Assembly: GCF_900156675.1 (NCBI RefSeq)
Contig: NZ_FTOH01000002.1
Span: 248,001-312,000, forward strand
Direction of reading: 5' to 3'
Length of the DNA: 64,000 nucleotides
Source of the DNA: Thalassolituus maritimus
GTDB lineage: Bacteria; Pseudomonadota; Gammaproteobacteria; Pseudomonadales; Oceanobacteraceae
The translations under genes and the position numbers were made by a program. Below the pieces are notes generated by a model that had not been told where the DNA came from, did not search any database, and was given only the letters and a program-made list of their open reading frames with translations. Below, piece after piece: positions 2,894-29,144 of this stretch (positions are counted from its first letter, which is position 1; the number at the start of each line of letters is the position of its first letter).

Positions 2894-3442
2894 ATGTCCG
2901 AGACGCGCGCCCAGCTGAAACATATCGCTATCGACCAGATTCAACAGGCGAATCTGGCCGCAGCCAGCTTTCGTGAACTGGGAAAGGCAGCGGGCATCAA
3001 GTCCAGCTCTGTGCACTACCACTTCCAGAGCCGCGAGCGACTCCTCACTGAGCTACTGCAAGATTACGACCTCAAGTTCTTCAGCGAACTGGATGCTGCC
3101 ACGGCAGGCACCCATCGACCACGTCAACGATTGGGGGCGCTGATCGATGTATTTGAGAGCTTCCATACTCATCGCCGCCAATGCATGAGCCTTGCCTATG
3201 CGGCCTCGCCCCACGAACTCAGCGATGCCAGTCTCGGCGCTGTGAATACATTCCTCGAGCACATGGAACGCTGGGTAGAAGACGCGTTGCAGAAAGCGAG
3301 CCTGTTACCCATTCCGAAAGATGAACTGGCCTGCGTCATTGTCTCTACTCTCGAAGGCTCATTACTGTTTGACCGCCTGAGCGACAATCCGCGACACCTG
3401 CACGCTGCACGCAGCTGGATTGCCTCTCTCAGCAGCTACTGA
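2894..3442 (+). CDS. TetR/AcrR family transcriptional regulator
   Basis: 182 residues, the usual length for TetR repressors. Residues about 20-55 form the N-terminal helix-turn-helix: FRELGKAAGIKSSSVHYHF matches the TetR pattern (…LA..AGVS.G..Y.HF..K..L). The remaining two thirds is helical and would bind a ligand and dimerise; the ligand cannot be told. ATG at 2894 has GGGAGG upstream. It sits about 150 bases upstream of, and in the same direction as, the two tandem PF10118 proteins, so it probably controls them, an inference from position. Such regulators often govern lipid or xenobiotic genes in marine gammaproteobacteria. Confidence 0.9.
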   Translation: MSETRAQLKHIAIDQIQQANLAAASFRELGKAAGIKSSSVHYHFQSRERLLTELLQDYDLKFFSELDAATAGTHRPRQRLGALIDVFESFHTHRRQCMSLAYAASPHELSDASLGAVNTFLEHMERWVEDALQKASLLPIPKDELACVIVSTLEGSLLFDRLSDNPRHLHAARSWIASLSSY

Positions 3443-3592: not shown

Positions 3593-4435
3593 ATGACTAA
3601 AACAGCACGTGAAATCAGCGCTGATATTGAATTTCCCGGTCGCAAAATGGACTTTGGTTTCGACTTCGAAGACTTGCCTCGTTACTGGAACGATAACGAC
3701 GCATTCAAGACACACTTTATGAACGCACTCTCATGCCTGTTCCTCGAAGGCGAGCGTATGTTCATCGATGCCGTGCGCGACAGCCAACATCTGGTCAAAG
3801 ATGAGAAGCTTTTGTCACAGGTGAAAAGCTTCATCAAGCAAGAAGCCATTCACGGGCACGAGCACCACAAATTCAGTGAATACCTGGATTCTATGGGCTA
3901 CCCGGCGACCAAAGTAGAAGACTTTGAGCGCAAAGAGAAAAAGCTCATGCGTAAGTACATGCCAGCGAAGCGTCGTCTGGCGATTACCTGCGCCGTCGAG
4001 CACTTCACCGCCATTCTGGCGCATCAGGTGCTGACCAATCCAGAAGCCACTGAAGGCATGGACCCACGTTTCAAAGAAATGTGGACATGGCACGCCATCG
4101 AAGAAACCGAACATAAAGGCGTCTGCTACGACGTTTACGAGCAAACGGGCGGAGGCTATTGGCTGCGCGTCTTTGCCATGTTTAACGTCACCTGGATGTT
4201 CTTGTTGCGCACTGCCATAGTGCAGGGGATCTTCCTGTGGAAAGACGGTAAGCTGTTTAAACCGTCTACCTGGAAATCAGGTTTCAAGTTCTTCTGGAAA
4301 AAGCCCGGGCTGATCCCGAGCATCTGGAGCGACTACAAAGATTACTACCGCCGCGACTTCCACCCATGGGATCACGACAACCGTGAGCTGCTGGGCGAAT
4401 GGCAGGCGGGCCACGATAATTATAAGACTGTATAA
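3593..4435 (+). CDS. PF10118 'metal-dependent hydrolase' family protein with diiron signature (copy 1)
   Basis: 280 residues, close to full length for the family annotated as predicted metal-dependent hydrolase (COG3687). No reaction is established. Possible metal ligands, in order: E54 (LEGERMF), E84-A-I-H87 (followed by GHEHH), E136-H137 (VEHFTA), and E171-x-x-H174 (WHAIEETEHK). The order E, ExxH, E, ExxH and their spacing are those of ferritin-like diiron four-helix bundles. A hydrophobic stretch at about 193-215 may touch a membrane or lipid. The start has AGGCAGGT upstream. Copy 2 follows after 4 bases, and a diverged third copy lies at 28293-29144. The TetR gene upstream is the likely regulator. 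Confidence 0.85.
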   Translation: MTKTAREISADIEFPGRKMDFGFDFEDLPRYWNDNDAFKTHFMNALSCLFLEGERMFIDAVRDSQHLVKDEKLLSQVKSFIKQEAIHGHEHHKFSEYLDSMGYPATKVEDFERKEKKLMRKYMPAKRRLAITCAVEHFTAILAHQVLTNPEATEGMDPRFKEMWTWHAIEETEHKGVCYDVYEQTGGGYWLRVFAMFNVTWMFLLRTAIVQGIFLWKDGKLFKPSTWKSGFKFFWKKPGLIPSIWSDYKDYYRRDFHPWDHDNRELLGEWQAGHDNYKTV

Positions 4436-4439
4436 AACT

Positions 4440-5291
4440 ATGACTGATAAACAAGCGACCGCCCGCAATGTGAGTGCGGGCATTGAATTTCATGGCCGTA
4501 AAATGGACTTCGGATTCGAATTCGAAGACCTGCCGCGTTACTGGTACGGCAATGACGCCTTTAAAAGCACCCTGATGAACGCGCTTTCTTGCCTGTTCCT
4601 GGAGGGCGAGCGCCTGTTTATCGATGCAGTCCGTGACAACGAACACCTGGTGAAAGACGAACGCCTGCAAAAGCAGGTGAAGAATTTCATCAAACAGGAA
4701 GCGATTCACGGTCACGAGCACCATATGCTCAGCGAATACCTCGACACGCTCGGCTATCCGGCGACAAAGGTAGAGGCTCAGGAACGCGCAGTAAGACTCT
4801 TCCTCAAAAAACACGTCCCGGCGAAAGACCGTCTGGCCATTACCTGTGCGGTAGAACACTTCACCGCCATGCTGGCTCATCAGATGCTCACCAACAACGA
4901 GCTGACCGACGAAATGGACCCACGCATCCGCGAAATGTGGAAGTGGCACGCCATCGAAGAGACCGAGCACAAAGGCGTCTGCTTCGACGTGTATGAAGCC
5001 GCTGGCGGAGGCTACTGGAAGCGGGTATTCCACATGGCCACCATCACCATGACCTTCGTCATGCGACTCAGCACAGTGCAGGCGTACTTCCTGTGGAAAG
5101 ATAAGCAGCTGTTCAAATGGTCGACCTGGAAATCCGCGTTCCGCTTCTACTGGAAAACGCCTGCGCTGATCCCGACCATCTGGAAAGAATACAAAGACTA
5201 CTACCGTCGCGACTTCCACCCATGGGAGCACGACAACCGCGAACTGCTCGAAGGCTGGGAAGCCGAGCACGACAACTACAAAGCGGTATAA
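4440..5291 (+). CDS. PF10118 'metal-dependent hydrolase' family protein with diiron signature (copy 2)
   Basis: 283 residues from ATG at 4440, clearly a tandem duplicate of the preceding gene (shared blocks KMDFGFEFEDLPRYW, EAIHGHEHH, WHAIEETEHKGVC). All putative metal ligands are kept: E57, E87xxH90, the EH pair near 139, and ExxH in EETEH near 174. The gap to copy 1 is only 4 bases and no Shine-Dalgarno is visible, so translation is probably coupled. A longer reading from 4383 exists, but it would overlap copy 1 and add residues foreign to the family. Both copies are kept intact, which suggests separate substrates or a heteromer; that is inference. A hairpin follows at 5300-5323. Confidence 0.85.
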   Translation: MTDKQATARNVSAGIEFHGRKMDFGFEFEDLPRYWYGNDAFKSTLMNALSCLFLEGERLFIDAVRDNEHLVKDERLQKQVKNFIKQEAIHGHEHHMLSEYLDTLGYPATKVEAQERAVRLFLKKHVPAKDRLAITCAVEHFTAMLAHQMLTNNELTDEMDPRIREMWKWHAIEETEHKGVCFDVYEAAGGGYWKRVFHMATITMTFVMRLSTVQAYFLWKDKQLFKWSTWKSAFRFYWKTPALIPTIWKEYKDYYRRDFHPWEHDNRELLEGWEAEHDNYKAV

Positions 5292-5424: not shown

Positions 5425-6930
5425 ATGGCCGATTTCGAACTAGAAGACCTTCAGGGCAACCGTTACCGACTCCGACGCGGCTCAGGCCCCGGTCTGTACC
5501 ACCCAGAGAACCTCTGCACGGGTGGCAACTTTGATGCCGAACGTCTGCTTGGCCACTTCAGCACAAGCAATATCGACGACAGCTTTAATCACTTCTATTT
5601 CGACGTACTGTCAAAGTTGGATGACCGTCCGTCATGCCCGCGGCAAGCGCTGACCAAAGCCATTGCAGCCAACTACCTGACGCTCGAGAAAGTCGATACC
5701 GCTCGAGCAGTCGACGACGAAGTACCCGATGATCGCCCATTCCTGCGTGTGCAGATTGAAAACGCCCTGCGTCAGATCGTCGAAGGCGAACGCCGCGAAG
5801 CCGCCATGCACCAACGTCAGATGGATAAAGAATCCACCGTAATGAAAGGCCTGATCTACACAGGCGCCTTCATGACCGGCATCGGTTCATCCGCCTGGGG
5901 CCTTGCAGTACAGGTAAAAGAGCTCAGCGACGTCATCAACCCATTTAAGAAAATGGAACACCATGCCAAAGCACTTCGTGCCGCATGGGAATCGGACAAC
6001 TTCGCAGACACCTACGCCGAAACTTATCTGAGCGGCGAAAAGCGCGAACTCGTTGAAGCCATCGGCTTCGACCCGAGCCAGATCACCCAGCAGCAGATCG
6101 ACGAAGCGATTGCCATGACCGACCTGGTGCTCAACGACGAAACCCTGCGCGACATTTTATATCGCTTCGTCAAAGACTACGCCGAAGCCCAGCACGCCAT
6201 CGAAATCACCGAAGTCGCAGGCTCTGGCGCATTTGAATTGATCCTGACCATCATCGTCGCTGCCGTCACAGGTGGTGCAGGTGTGGTTGCCGCCGTTGGC
6301 AGCAAGATGCACCTGGTGCGTAAGTTCAACAAAGTCGGTGACCTGTTAGCTGACTTTGCGAAAGCAACCAAACAAATTAAGAACCGTAAAAAAGCGTTCA
6401 ATGGTAAGAACACCGGCCCAGGCAAACTGGAATCCGTCGATGGTTCGGTGAAGAAAACCGATGCGCATGGGGCTGAGACGGGAGAGGTGAGTAAGTCTGT
6501 AACTGAAAATACATGGCACACCTCAGATGCCGCTCCGAAAATTCAGGGGGTTTTAAACGGTATCGACCCCAAATATCTCAATCCAGATAGCAGGTTTGGT
6601 CCCGCGTTCTACGTAGGAGAAGAACCAACAACAACCATTGCAGAATTGGCACATCACAATGTAGATGCCAAATTCAGTATAAGATTTCAACTAAATAAAG
6701 ATGCAATGAATACCCTAGACTTAACCGATCCTGAGATTGCGAGAGAATGGGGATATTCTGGTGGACCTATATCCTCCGAAACAAAGTCGATTGGCGCAAA
6801 GGCGGCGTCATCAGGCTACAATGTGATTCGTTTCCCATCAGAGAGAGCACCTGGTGGGGTCAACAATGCGGTTCTCTCTGACTTCAATGAAATATTAAAA
6901 CCACAAAGCGTATCTCCGGTGAAATTATGA
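5425..6930 (+). CDS. Probable polymorphic (type VI-like) toxin with C-terminal ADP-ribosyltransferase/RES-like domain
   Basis: 501 residues. Residues 1-330 form a carrier region: a charged N-terminus, hydrophobic stretches at about 141-163 and 268-293 (ELILTIIVAAVTGGAGVVAA), then a basic linker (about 296-325). This layout is typical of type VI secretion effectors with a pre-toxin membrane region. Residues about 360-501 form a different domain: NPDSRFGPAFYVGEEP then TTTIAELAHH, and later GYNVIRFPSERA. The Arg390, Glu407 and Ser/Asn pattern resembles RES/ADP-ribosyltransferase folds and, from memory, Rhs-linked toxins that modify EF-Tu (TreTu). Base use turns AT-rich from about 6481, so the toxin tip was probably swapped in. 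The ATGA overlap with the next gene is typical of a toxin-immunity pair. No Shine-Dalgarno is clear at 5425, and no vgrG, hcp or PAAR gene is in the window. Confidence 0.7.
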   Translation: MADFELEDLQGNRYRLRRGSGPGLYHPENLCTGGNFDAERLLGHFSTSNIDDSFNHFYFDVLSKLDDRPSCPRQALTKAIAANYLTLEKVDTARAVDDEVPDDRPFLRVQIENALRQIVEGERREAAMHQRQMDKESTVMKGLIYTGAFMTGIGSSAWGLAVQVKELSDVINPFKKMEHHAKALRAAWESDNFADTYAETYLSGEKRELVEAIGFDPSQITQQQIDEAIAMTDLVLNDETLRDILYRFVKDYAEAQHAIEITEVAGSGAFELILTIIVAAVTGGAGVVAAVGSKMHLVRKFNKVGDLLADFAKATKQIKNRKKAFNGKNTGPGKLESVDGSVKKTDAHGAETGEVSKSVTENTWHTSDAAPKIQGVLNGIDPKYLNPDSRFGPAFYVGEEPTTTIAELAHHNVDAKFSIRFQLNKDAMNTLDLTDPEIAREWGYSGGPISSETKSIGAKAASSGYNVIRFPSERAPGGVNNAVLSDFNEILKPQSVSPVKL

Positions 6931-8951: not shown

Positions 8952-8983
8952 GTAACATCAATTCTATTTTGGTTTGGCTCGCT

Positions 8984-10123
8984 ATGAATAATAAAAGTAT
9001 CCAAGAATTTTCTTTAAAGATATCAAACCTCGCTAGCCAAGGCCTTTGGTTTCCCAACAGCTCAGAAAAAATGTCTGGCGTTGCTGTCGAGCCCGAAGTC
9101 ACTGAAATTCAAACTTATATTAACGCCAGAAAGGGGTTTGACCGAGGCCTAATCGATGAAAATCGTCTAAATAACCTCCCCGGCAGTTCACTTAAGCACT
9201 CTATTTCTGATCGTGCACGTGGTGCTCTGATTGGTACAGCCGTCGGGGATGCTCTCGGCACAACTATTGAATTTTCTACACCAGGTACCTTTGAACCAGT
9301 TACCGAAATTACTGGCGGAGGCCCCTTCAAATTAAAATCTGGCGAATGGACTGACGACTCCAGTATGATGCTATGTCTCGCACACAGCCTGACGCGAAAG
9401 GGTACGTTTGATCTAAAAGATCAGATTGATTTGTATGTAAAATGGTGGAAAGAAGGCGCCTTTAGCGTTACAGCCAGCTGCTTTGATATCGGCATGACGG
9501 TCCAGTCTGCGTTACAGGAATATCAACAAGCAGGTAATCCAGAAGCTGGCCCTGACGACCCCTACAGTGCAGGAAATGGTTCTCTTATGCGACTGGCTCC
9601 GATCCCCGTCTTCTTTCATAGCAACTTTGAAGAAGCTGTATATTATTCAGGAAAGAGCTCTTTAACTACCCATCGTGCTACTGAGGCGGTAGATGCCTGC
9701 CGCTACTTTGGAGGATTAATATGGGGAGCACTCAATGGTGCATCTAAAGATGAATTGCTGGATGACCTTTATACTCCTGTTCCCGGTTATTGGGATAAAA
9801 AGCCTTTGTGCGACTCCGTGGCTGATCTTATCCGCAACGAAAATTATAAATATAAATCAGCATCAGAGGTTCGCGGGTCTGGGTATGTCATGCACTCGCT
9901 TGAAGCAGTTTTATGGGCCTTTTCAACAACGGACACTTTTGAGGAAGGCCTCCTAAAAGCTGTCAACCTTGGTGAAGATGCCGATACAACAGGTGCAATC
10001 TTTGGTCAGATTGGTGGGGCATATTATGGTGAACAGGGAATACCTCAGCGCTGGGTTTCTAAAGTAAAACATAATTACTTTTTCTATAAGAAGGCTGATG
10101 AGTTAATAAAAATCAGCTCTTAG
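8984..10123 (+). CDS. ADP-ribosylglycohydrolase (DraG/ARH family)
   Basis: 379 residues from ATG at 8984 (a TTG 15 bases upstream is less likely). It removes ADP-ribose from modified proteins or nucleic acids and is cytosolic. Family signatures: ARGALIGTAVGDALG (about 78-92), the metal-binding EWTDDSSMM (about 121-129), GNGSLMRLAPIPV in the middle, and the C-terminal LGEDADTTGAIFGQIGGAYYG, which holds the second set of metal-binding Asp/Thr residues. It therefore looks catalytically complete. An N-terminal extension of about 72 residues is not part of the core fold. It closes the toxin/immunity array that begins with an ADP-ribosyltransferase-like toxin. Enzymatic immunity by an ADP-ribosylhydrolase is known (Tri1 against Tre1), so a protective role is plausible. 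Confidence 0.88.
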   Translation: MNNKSIQEFSLKISNLASQGLWFPNSSEKMSGVAVEPEVTEIQTYINARKGFDRGLIDENRLNNLPGSSLKHSISDRARGALIGTAVGDALGTTIEFSTPGTFEPVTEITGGGPFKLKSGEWTDDSSMMLCLAHSLTRKGTFDLKDQIDLYVKWWKEGAFSVTASCFDIGMTVQSALQEYQQAGNPEAGPDDPYSAGNGSLMRLAPIPVFFHSNFEEAVYYSGKSSLTTHRATEAVDACRYFGGLIWGALNGASKDELLDDLYTPVPGYWDKKPLCDSVADLIRNENYKYKSASEVRGSGYVMHSLEAVLWAFSTTDTFEEGLLKAVNLGEDADTTGAIFGQIGGAYYGEQGIPQRWVSKVKHNYFFYKKADELIKISS

Positions 10124-28292: not shown

Positions 28293-29144
28293 TTAGCCAG
28301 CCCGGTACGCTTCAATTTCGGCTTTCCACTTTTCGACCAATGCACGATTGTCGTGGTCGTCAGGGTGGAAGTCTTCCCGATAGAAGTCTTTGAATGGCGC
28401 TTTGATGCAGGTGAACATGCCGTCTTCACCAAAGAGCATGCCCCAGGCTTCCTTGATCTGAACCCAGCTGGGCATCCGTCGAGCGGCCCACAGAAGGTAG
28501 ATGGTGCGGCCAATGGTGAGGGTGGGAAACAGTACCGCAATGGCGCGCATGATACGCAGCAGTGTTTTACGCTGACCGCCGGTGGCCATGTACACATCGA
28601 AAGCGACGGACTTGTGCTCGATCTCTTCGATGGCGTGCCAGATCATCATATATTTAATGGAAGGGTGCATCCCCTCAAGCTGTTTGGGGTGAGTAAGTAC
28701 ATACTCAGCCACAATCGCGGTGATGTGTTCAAGGCAGACTGTCGCCGCCAGACGTTCCCGCTTCGAGCGCTTGGCGTTGAGTAATGCGATGGCCTTTTCG
28801 ACACGCTTTTCGATCTTCTGCGCTTTCCACCCGAGTGACTCAAGCTTCTCATTCGCGAGCTTGTGCTGATTCGTATGGTGGGCTTCCTGGCGGGTGAAGT
28901 CTTTGACGTTTTCTAAAAGCTGCGGATCAGTCACACGGTCTTTGTAGTTGCGCACAGACTCTATAAACATCTGCTCGCCCGGCGGGAAGGTACCTGAGAG
29001 TACCGCTATGAAGGCAGTAAGGATCGGATTGCCACGGTACCAGTCCATGGTGTCGACCTGATCAAAGCTGAAGTCCATGCGGCGGACTTCAATGCCATTG
29101 GTCGATTCTGTCTGGGACATGCTGATATCGGCGGTGGTACTCAT
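28293..29144 (-). CDS. PF10118 'metal-dependent hydrolase' family protein, diverged copy 3
   Basis: 283 residues, ATG at 29144 with AGGAGAAGG upstream. Same family as the tandem pair at 3593-5291 but clearly diverged; the putative metal ligands are all kept: E57 (PPGEQMF), E87-A-H-H90, E139-H140 and E174-I-E-H177 (WHAIEEIEHK). Conserved tail FYREDFHPDDHDNRALVEKW matches the pair's PWDHDNRELL block. Three copies in one 64-kb window suggests active family expansion. It stands alone, convergent with the endolysin-like gene and with no regulator gene beside it. Confidence 0.85.
   Translation of the reverse strand: MSTTADISMSQTESTNGIEVRRMDFSFDQVDTMDWYRGNPILTAFIAVLSGTFPPGEQMFIESVRNYKDRVTDPQLLENVKDFTRQEAHHTNQHKLANEKLESLGWKAQKIEKRVEKAIALLNAKRSKRERLAATVCLEHITAIVAEYVLTHPKQLEGMHPSIKYMMIWHAIEEIEHKSVAFDVYMATGGQRKTLLRIMRAIAVLFPTLTIGRTIYLLWAARRMPSWVQIKEAWGMLFGEDGMFTCIKAPFKDFYREDFHPDDHDNRALVEKWKAEIEAYRAG

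Follow-up and report, generated by a model that had tools for sequence, protein, structure and literature searches.

Probable ferritin-like dimetal oxidases of the PF10118 family encoded by a tandem gene pair in Thalassolituus maritimus

Genes at the locus

The window, i.e. the whole stretch of 64,000 nucleotides that was analysed, contains a tandem pair of genes from the PF10118 (Metal_hydrol) family and a third, more distant paralogue (Table 1). Both proteins of the pair match the Pfam profile at positions 3-247 of 247, with 301.8 bits (E-value 5.5e-90) for protein 1 and 283.3 bits (2.5e-84) for protein 2 against the gathering cut-off of 33.2. The two proteins are 72% identical and their genes are separated by 4 nt; the GTG start listed for protein 2 at position 4383 would make the genes overlap. 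Protein 1 has 99% identity to a protein from an Oleibacter marinus MAG. In total, the 3.86-Mb genome holds eight PF10118 copies: three in the window, a tandem triplet and a single copy in C7, and a single copy in C18. The triplet (C7:269869-272981, or L245:7247-10584) is flanked by a glyA-like gene on one side and by an nrdR/ribD-like run on the other, the names being assigned by eye. The family was found in 44 of the 299 sampled genomes of the phylum, with up to eight copies per genome.

Table 1. Features of the PF10118 genes and proteins. Positions are those of the window, except for the last line, where they refer to the contigs named.
Feature	Position	Strand	Remarks
TetR-family regulator	2894..3442	+	150 nt upstream of the pair, same strand; weak NCBIfam TetR matches
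PF10118 protein 1	3593..4435	+	280 aa; probable ferritin-like dimetal oxidase
E54	3752..3754	+	helix A (37-67); first Glu of the AurF-type set, predicted ligand; invariant, 156/156
Q83-E84-x-x-H87	3839..3853	+	helix B (71-100); predicted ligands E84 and H87
E136	3998..4000	+	helix C (125-148); predicted ligand, equivalent of AurF E196; invariant
H167-x-x-E170-E171-x-x-H174	4091..4114	+	helix D (158-184); third His, putative second-shell acid, ExxH; all four invariant
PF10118 protein 2	4440..5291	+	283 aa; tandem copy, ATG at 4440
Third PF10118 paralogue of the window	28293..29144	-	283 aa; 36% identical; same ligand set
PF10118 gene and ACP gene directly after it, metagenomic phage contigs	L095:6004-7041, L255:5001-6015, L254:2033-3060, L259:5001-6010

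The tandem pair is also present in L009 and L010. Relatives of the TetR gene are located near the same place in these two loci as well as in L011 and L015, the relative in L015 matching PF00440/PF21993, and the gene is a probable local regulator. A promoter scan of the tandem pair yielded nothing above chance. The pair is directly followed by the gene of a RES-domain protein (PF08808, window positions 5425-6930), and an ADP-ribosylglycohydrolase-like gene, judged by eye, lies further downstream (8969-10123). Near relatives differ from the window in the region after the pair.

Conserved residues

The initial annotation had claimed that the acidic and His residues of the three window paralogues follow the order E, ExxH, E, ExxH. 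This is confirmed: the pattern is formed by E54, E84xxH87, E136 and E171xxH174 in protein 1, and by E57, E87xxH90, E139 and E174xxH177 in the third copy, while in protein 2 the residues of protein 1 are shifted by +3 (E57, E87, H90, E139, H170, E174, H177). The distance from the first Glu to the first ExxH equals 30 residues, and that from the third Glu to the second ExxH equals 35 residues, in all three copies.

For the analysis of conservation, 151 PF10118 members from genomes and viral contigs were aligned together with five phage members. The resulting 156 proteins come from Proteobacteria, Myxococcota and phages; the numbering follows protein 1. Exactly eight columns are invariant in all 156 sequences, namely E54, E84, H87, E136, H167, E170, E171 and H174, and the conserved words of the family are QExxH and HxxEExxH. 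Two of these residues had not been noticed initially: H167, a third His four positions before E171, and E170. Q83 is retained in 151 and F80 in 152 of the proteins. H91 and H137 come close to invariance, yet their absence from a few members makes them unlikely metal ligands. The pattern is not due to chance, given the eight paralogues of the genome and the fact that it is made of the only residues strictly invariant in 156 proteins.

Relation to AurF and other diiron families

The diiron motif of AurF, CmlI and DnfA comprises three His and four carboxylates (PMC9478400). In DnfA the ligands are E88, E123, H126, E182, H209, E213 and H216, i.e. E, ExxH, E, HxxxExxH (PMC9478400), and the AurF sequence from the PDB (3chh) reads H223-LR-D226-E227-TA-H230. 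Comparison of the 151-sequence PF10118 profile with a set of 18 AurF sequences by hhalign gave a probability of 87 (E-value 3.9e-6) with the ligand columns aligned. As controls, R2, citrate synthase and reversed AurF were compared with PF10118, yielding 16.8, 0.5 and 0.2, respectively; the yardstick pair, AurF and R2, scored 95. With a smaller set of six AurF sequences the probability was 11 (E-value 0.0028).

A Pfam scan of 83 PF10118 members showed matches to the AurF family (PF11583) in 22 (best E-value 2.9e-5), to rubrerythrin in four, and to any other family in at most two; class I ribonucleotide reductase (RNR) R2 (PF00268) is absent from the matched families, and proteins 1 and 2 themselves have no Pfam match to AurF. 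A search of whole genomes with the AurF profile recovers PF10118 genes, including the C18 copy of the studied genome (E-value 3.5e-4) and genes in three other genomes. The best member scores 25.5 bits with PF11583, under the cut-off of 29.6. Because all PF10118 scores lie below this cut-off, the sequence comparisons support kinship with AurF and not membership in its family.

Predicted structure

The AlphaFold2 model of protein 1, built with 83 family members, is a helical bundle with mean pLDDT of 93.3 and pTM of 0.90. At the level of helix assignment, the predicted ligands do not appear scattered over the fold: the model places them on four separate long helices carrying E54, E84 with H87, E136, and H167 with E171 and H174, respectively. 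The helix placement and the fold matches suggest that these residues converge in space.

In the Foldseek search against the PDB, 45 of the 50 top matches of protein 1 are ferritin-like dimetal proteins, mostly R2lox, with probabilities of up to 0.99 for R2lox, 0.96 for AurF and 0.90 for CmlI. Other matches include R2, methane monooxygenase and aldehyde deformylating oxygenase; the single top match is a TENA/THI-4 protein. TM-scores reach 0.50 for R2lox and 0.46 for R2, being about 0.5 at most. The E-values are weak (at least 0.08 for protein 1 and at least 0.05 across protein 1 and a phage member), and therefore the resemblance is at the level of the fold. Search against the viral library yielded mainly RNR R2 proteins. 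The phage member was folded separately (pLDDT 95.1, pTM 0.91); its ligand helices are alike, and 46 of its 50 top PDB matches are ferritin-like. Sequence searches of the PDB with the PF10118 alignments produced chance matches only, hence no close relative of the family has a solved structure. A role of the hydrophobic helix 189-217 as a membrane anchor is not supported: the mean maximum 19-residue hydropathy is 1.36, with values of at least 1.6 in 35% of members.

Cellular gene neighbourhoods

The neighbour counts cover the 98 loci in which a PF10118 gene was called; they are approximate, since gene calling relied on a simple rule based on composition. The commonest partner is an AraC regulator with the PF12625 domain, found in 32 copies with 29 adjacencies to PF10118, 26 of these adjacencies being divergent. 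An alpha/beta-hydrolase gene adjoins PF10118 in 10 of 10 cases, mostly in Pseudomonas loci, and a DegV-family gene directly follows it in all 13 Marinobacter loci holding one (L028-L062). Only these three families are significantly enriched as direct neighbours, with p-values that are optimistic since the genomes are related. Genes for short-chain dehydrogenases, FMO-like monooxygenases, acyl-CoA ligases and acyl-CoA dehydrogenases occur a few genes away from PF10118, with no significant enrichment as direct neighbours in the 98 loci. In the studied genome, the single C7 copy adjoins an acyl-CoA ligase gene, with FMO-like and AraC genes nearby, and the C18 copy adjoins a divergent AraC gene. 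No ACP gene was found beside PF10118 among the cellular loci examined, and the PF10118 neighbourhoods showed no dedicated reductase gene and no recognisable amine or natural-product genes. In L126, L127 and L130, which carry a divergent clade of short PF10118 proteins, genes for an ABC ATPase, a permease and a third conserved protein lie upstream in conserved order.

Phage genes

PF10118 proteins from viral contigs, the longest of which has 331 kb, form a single clade (SH-aLRT 100) and retain all eight invariant residues. An ACP gene comes next after the PF10118 gene, within a few nucleotides, in L253 (322 kb), L254, L255 and the near-identical L258 and L259; three to four phage lineages have the gene pair. 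None of the paired contigs, even the 322-kb one, has a PP-binding match other than this ACP, and the tested flanking genes are phage-type. No ACP gene was found in L256, L257 and L260 of the same clade, and no phosphopantetheinyl transferase in the phage contigs. Although circumstantial, this pair is the best clue to an ACP-bound acyl chain as the substrate.

In L260 (L260:3-905), a gene for a PLP-dependent aminotransferase of class I/II lies about 4 kb from the PF10118 gene. A separate PF10118 gene on a long branch (L262:5001-5750, the same as L092-L094) is accompanied by terminase and tail tube genes; no ACP was found there. Several candidates were rejected as phage genes. For the match in a Pseudomonas phage GenBank record, a position past attR points to probable host DNA; the Acinetobacter phage MD-2021a records contain several PF10118 genes and their contigs look like bacterial chromosome; in L090 and L091 the gene is at the contig edge beside prophage-type genes, probably in host DNA.

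Interpretation and alternatives

We consider PF10118 proteins to be ferritin-like dimetal, most likely diiron, oxidases with an AurF/CmlI-type site, probably acting on acyl chains carried by ACP or CoA; we assign this reading a probability of roughly 0.8. Its parts differ in strength. The ferritin-like fold and the seven-ligand set are very likely, being supported by the conservation of the ligands, the repeated though sub-threshold AurF and rubrerythrin matches, the profile alignment with its controls, and the confident model with its ferritin-like fold neighbours. The use of iron, O2 and an outside reductase is probable by analogy with related families. For an acyl-thioester substrate, suggested by the gene neighbourhoods, we would give slightly less than even odds. 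Two metals would be held in the four-helix bundle by E54, E84, H87, E136, H167, E171 and H174 (3-His/4-carboxylate), with E170 and Q83 as possible second-shell partners. The enzyme may activate O2 with two electrons coming from a separate reductase, and would then hydroxylate, desaturate or similarly oxidise its probable fatty-acyl substrate. No functional study of PF10118 was found in the literature searched.

These results bear out the initial suggestion of a diiron oxidase or oxygenase pattern with respect to conservation, profile comparison and predicted fold, the metal content being attributed by family. The proposed direction towards lipids is supported circumstantially by the lipid-oxidation neighbours and the phage ACP pair, whereas its alkane-specific part is not borne out.

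A non-catalytic or protective role of the ferritin-like site, such as metal storage or rubrerythrin-like peroxide scavenging, is improbable. It would agree with the rubrerythrin matches in four of 83 members and with the fact that no dedicated reductase gene was seen nearby; however, seven ligands that include a third His are reported to occur mainly within one group of diiron oxygenases, the N-oxygenase subfamily (PMC12101540), and the multiple paralogues per genome (eight in the studied one), the varied lipid-gene contexts and the ACP partner in phages point to enzymes with specific substrates. We also regard as unlikely an N-oxygenase acting on an amine, like AurF, CmlI or DnfA: the ligand set is the same and AurF is the nearest family by sequence, but the neighbourhoods hold lipid genes and ACP, and the AurF-like three-His site of CylC/NocO can act on an acyl carbon (PMC12101540).

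CylC and NocO, dimetal enzymes containing QExxH and HxxDExxH, chlorinate acyl chains tethered to ACP, a dodecanoyl chain in the case of NocO (PMC12101540). The shared QExxH and the phage ACP partner would fit a halogenase of this type, which is nevertheless quite improbable, as the motifs diagnostic of CylC-type halogenases are ExxQExxH and HxxDExxH (PMC12871659), while position 80 of PF10118 is mostly Phe and HxxEExxH is universal. Moreover, E136 is invariant, whereas the corresponding residue of CylC is predicted to be released from the metal (PMC12101540). By these measures PF10118 is neither AurF proper, given the scores, nor CylC, given the motif. Least credible is a metal-dependent hydrolase in which Zn or Mn, held by the Glu/His cluster, would activate water to act on an ester or amide, as this reading has in its favour the inherited Pfam name and the adjoining alpha/beta-hydrolase gene, which encodes a different protein, and against it the Pfam and NCBIfam scans, which show no metal-dependent hydrolase family except PF10118 itself, the next-best Pfam families (AurF and rubrerythrin) and the oxidases among the fold neighbours. 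The name "hydrolase", already suspected in the initial annotation, finds no support in these analyses and appears to be wrong.

Returning to the dimetal oxidase, a wider and more speculative proposal, which is less likely than not, is that PF10118 is an unrecognised class of enzymes modifying acyl chains on ACP or CoA, with specialised paralogues in bacteria and a two-gene module of oxidase and ACP in large phages. If so, infecting phages would use the module to modify lipids of the host or a component of the virion. Should the family consist of dimetal oxidases that activate O2 at this rare seven-ligand site, AurF, CmlI and CylC would gain a large neighbouring group. With the phage pairs, a partner protein is at hand for the substrate search, and the ligand set provides concrete targets for mutation.

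Comparison with known systems

Acyl-ACP desaturase (PF03405) belongs to the ferritin-like diiron enzymes and has acyl chains bound to ACP as its substrates; no PF03405 match is among the families listed for the 83 PF10118 members at E-value 0.05. R2lox and class I RNR R2 are the closest solved folds and share the ExxH pairs. In R2, the position four before the Glu of the second ExxH is never His in 26 aligned sequences (Ile, Leu, Met, Phe and similar residues are found), and the profile score with PF10118 is weak.

CylC and NocO resemble PF10118 in QExxH, the three His, the AurF-like fold and the ACP-bound acyl substrate, which for PF10118 is suggested by the phage gene pairs. The differences are FxxQExxH instead of ExxQExxH, HxxEExxH (156/156) instead of HxxDExxH, and the absence of a recognised halogenated natural-product cluster around PF10118 in the loci examined.

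Compared with AurF, PF10118 has Gln in place of D135 and Glu in place of D226, its neighbourhoods are of lipid type, and it always has the third His, which a good part of the PF11583 members lack. With AurF, CmlI and DnfA it shares the seven ligands in the same register, all invariant in PF10118, the acid just before the second ExxH, the predicted ferritin-like fold and significant profile similarity.
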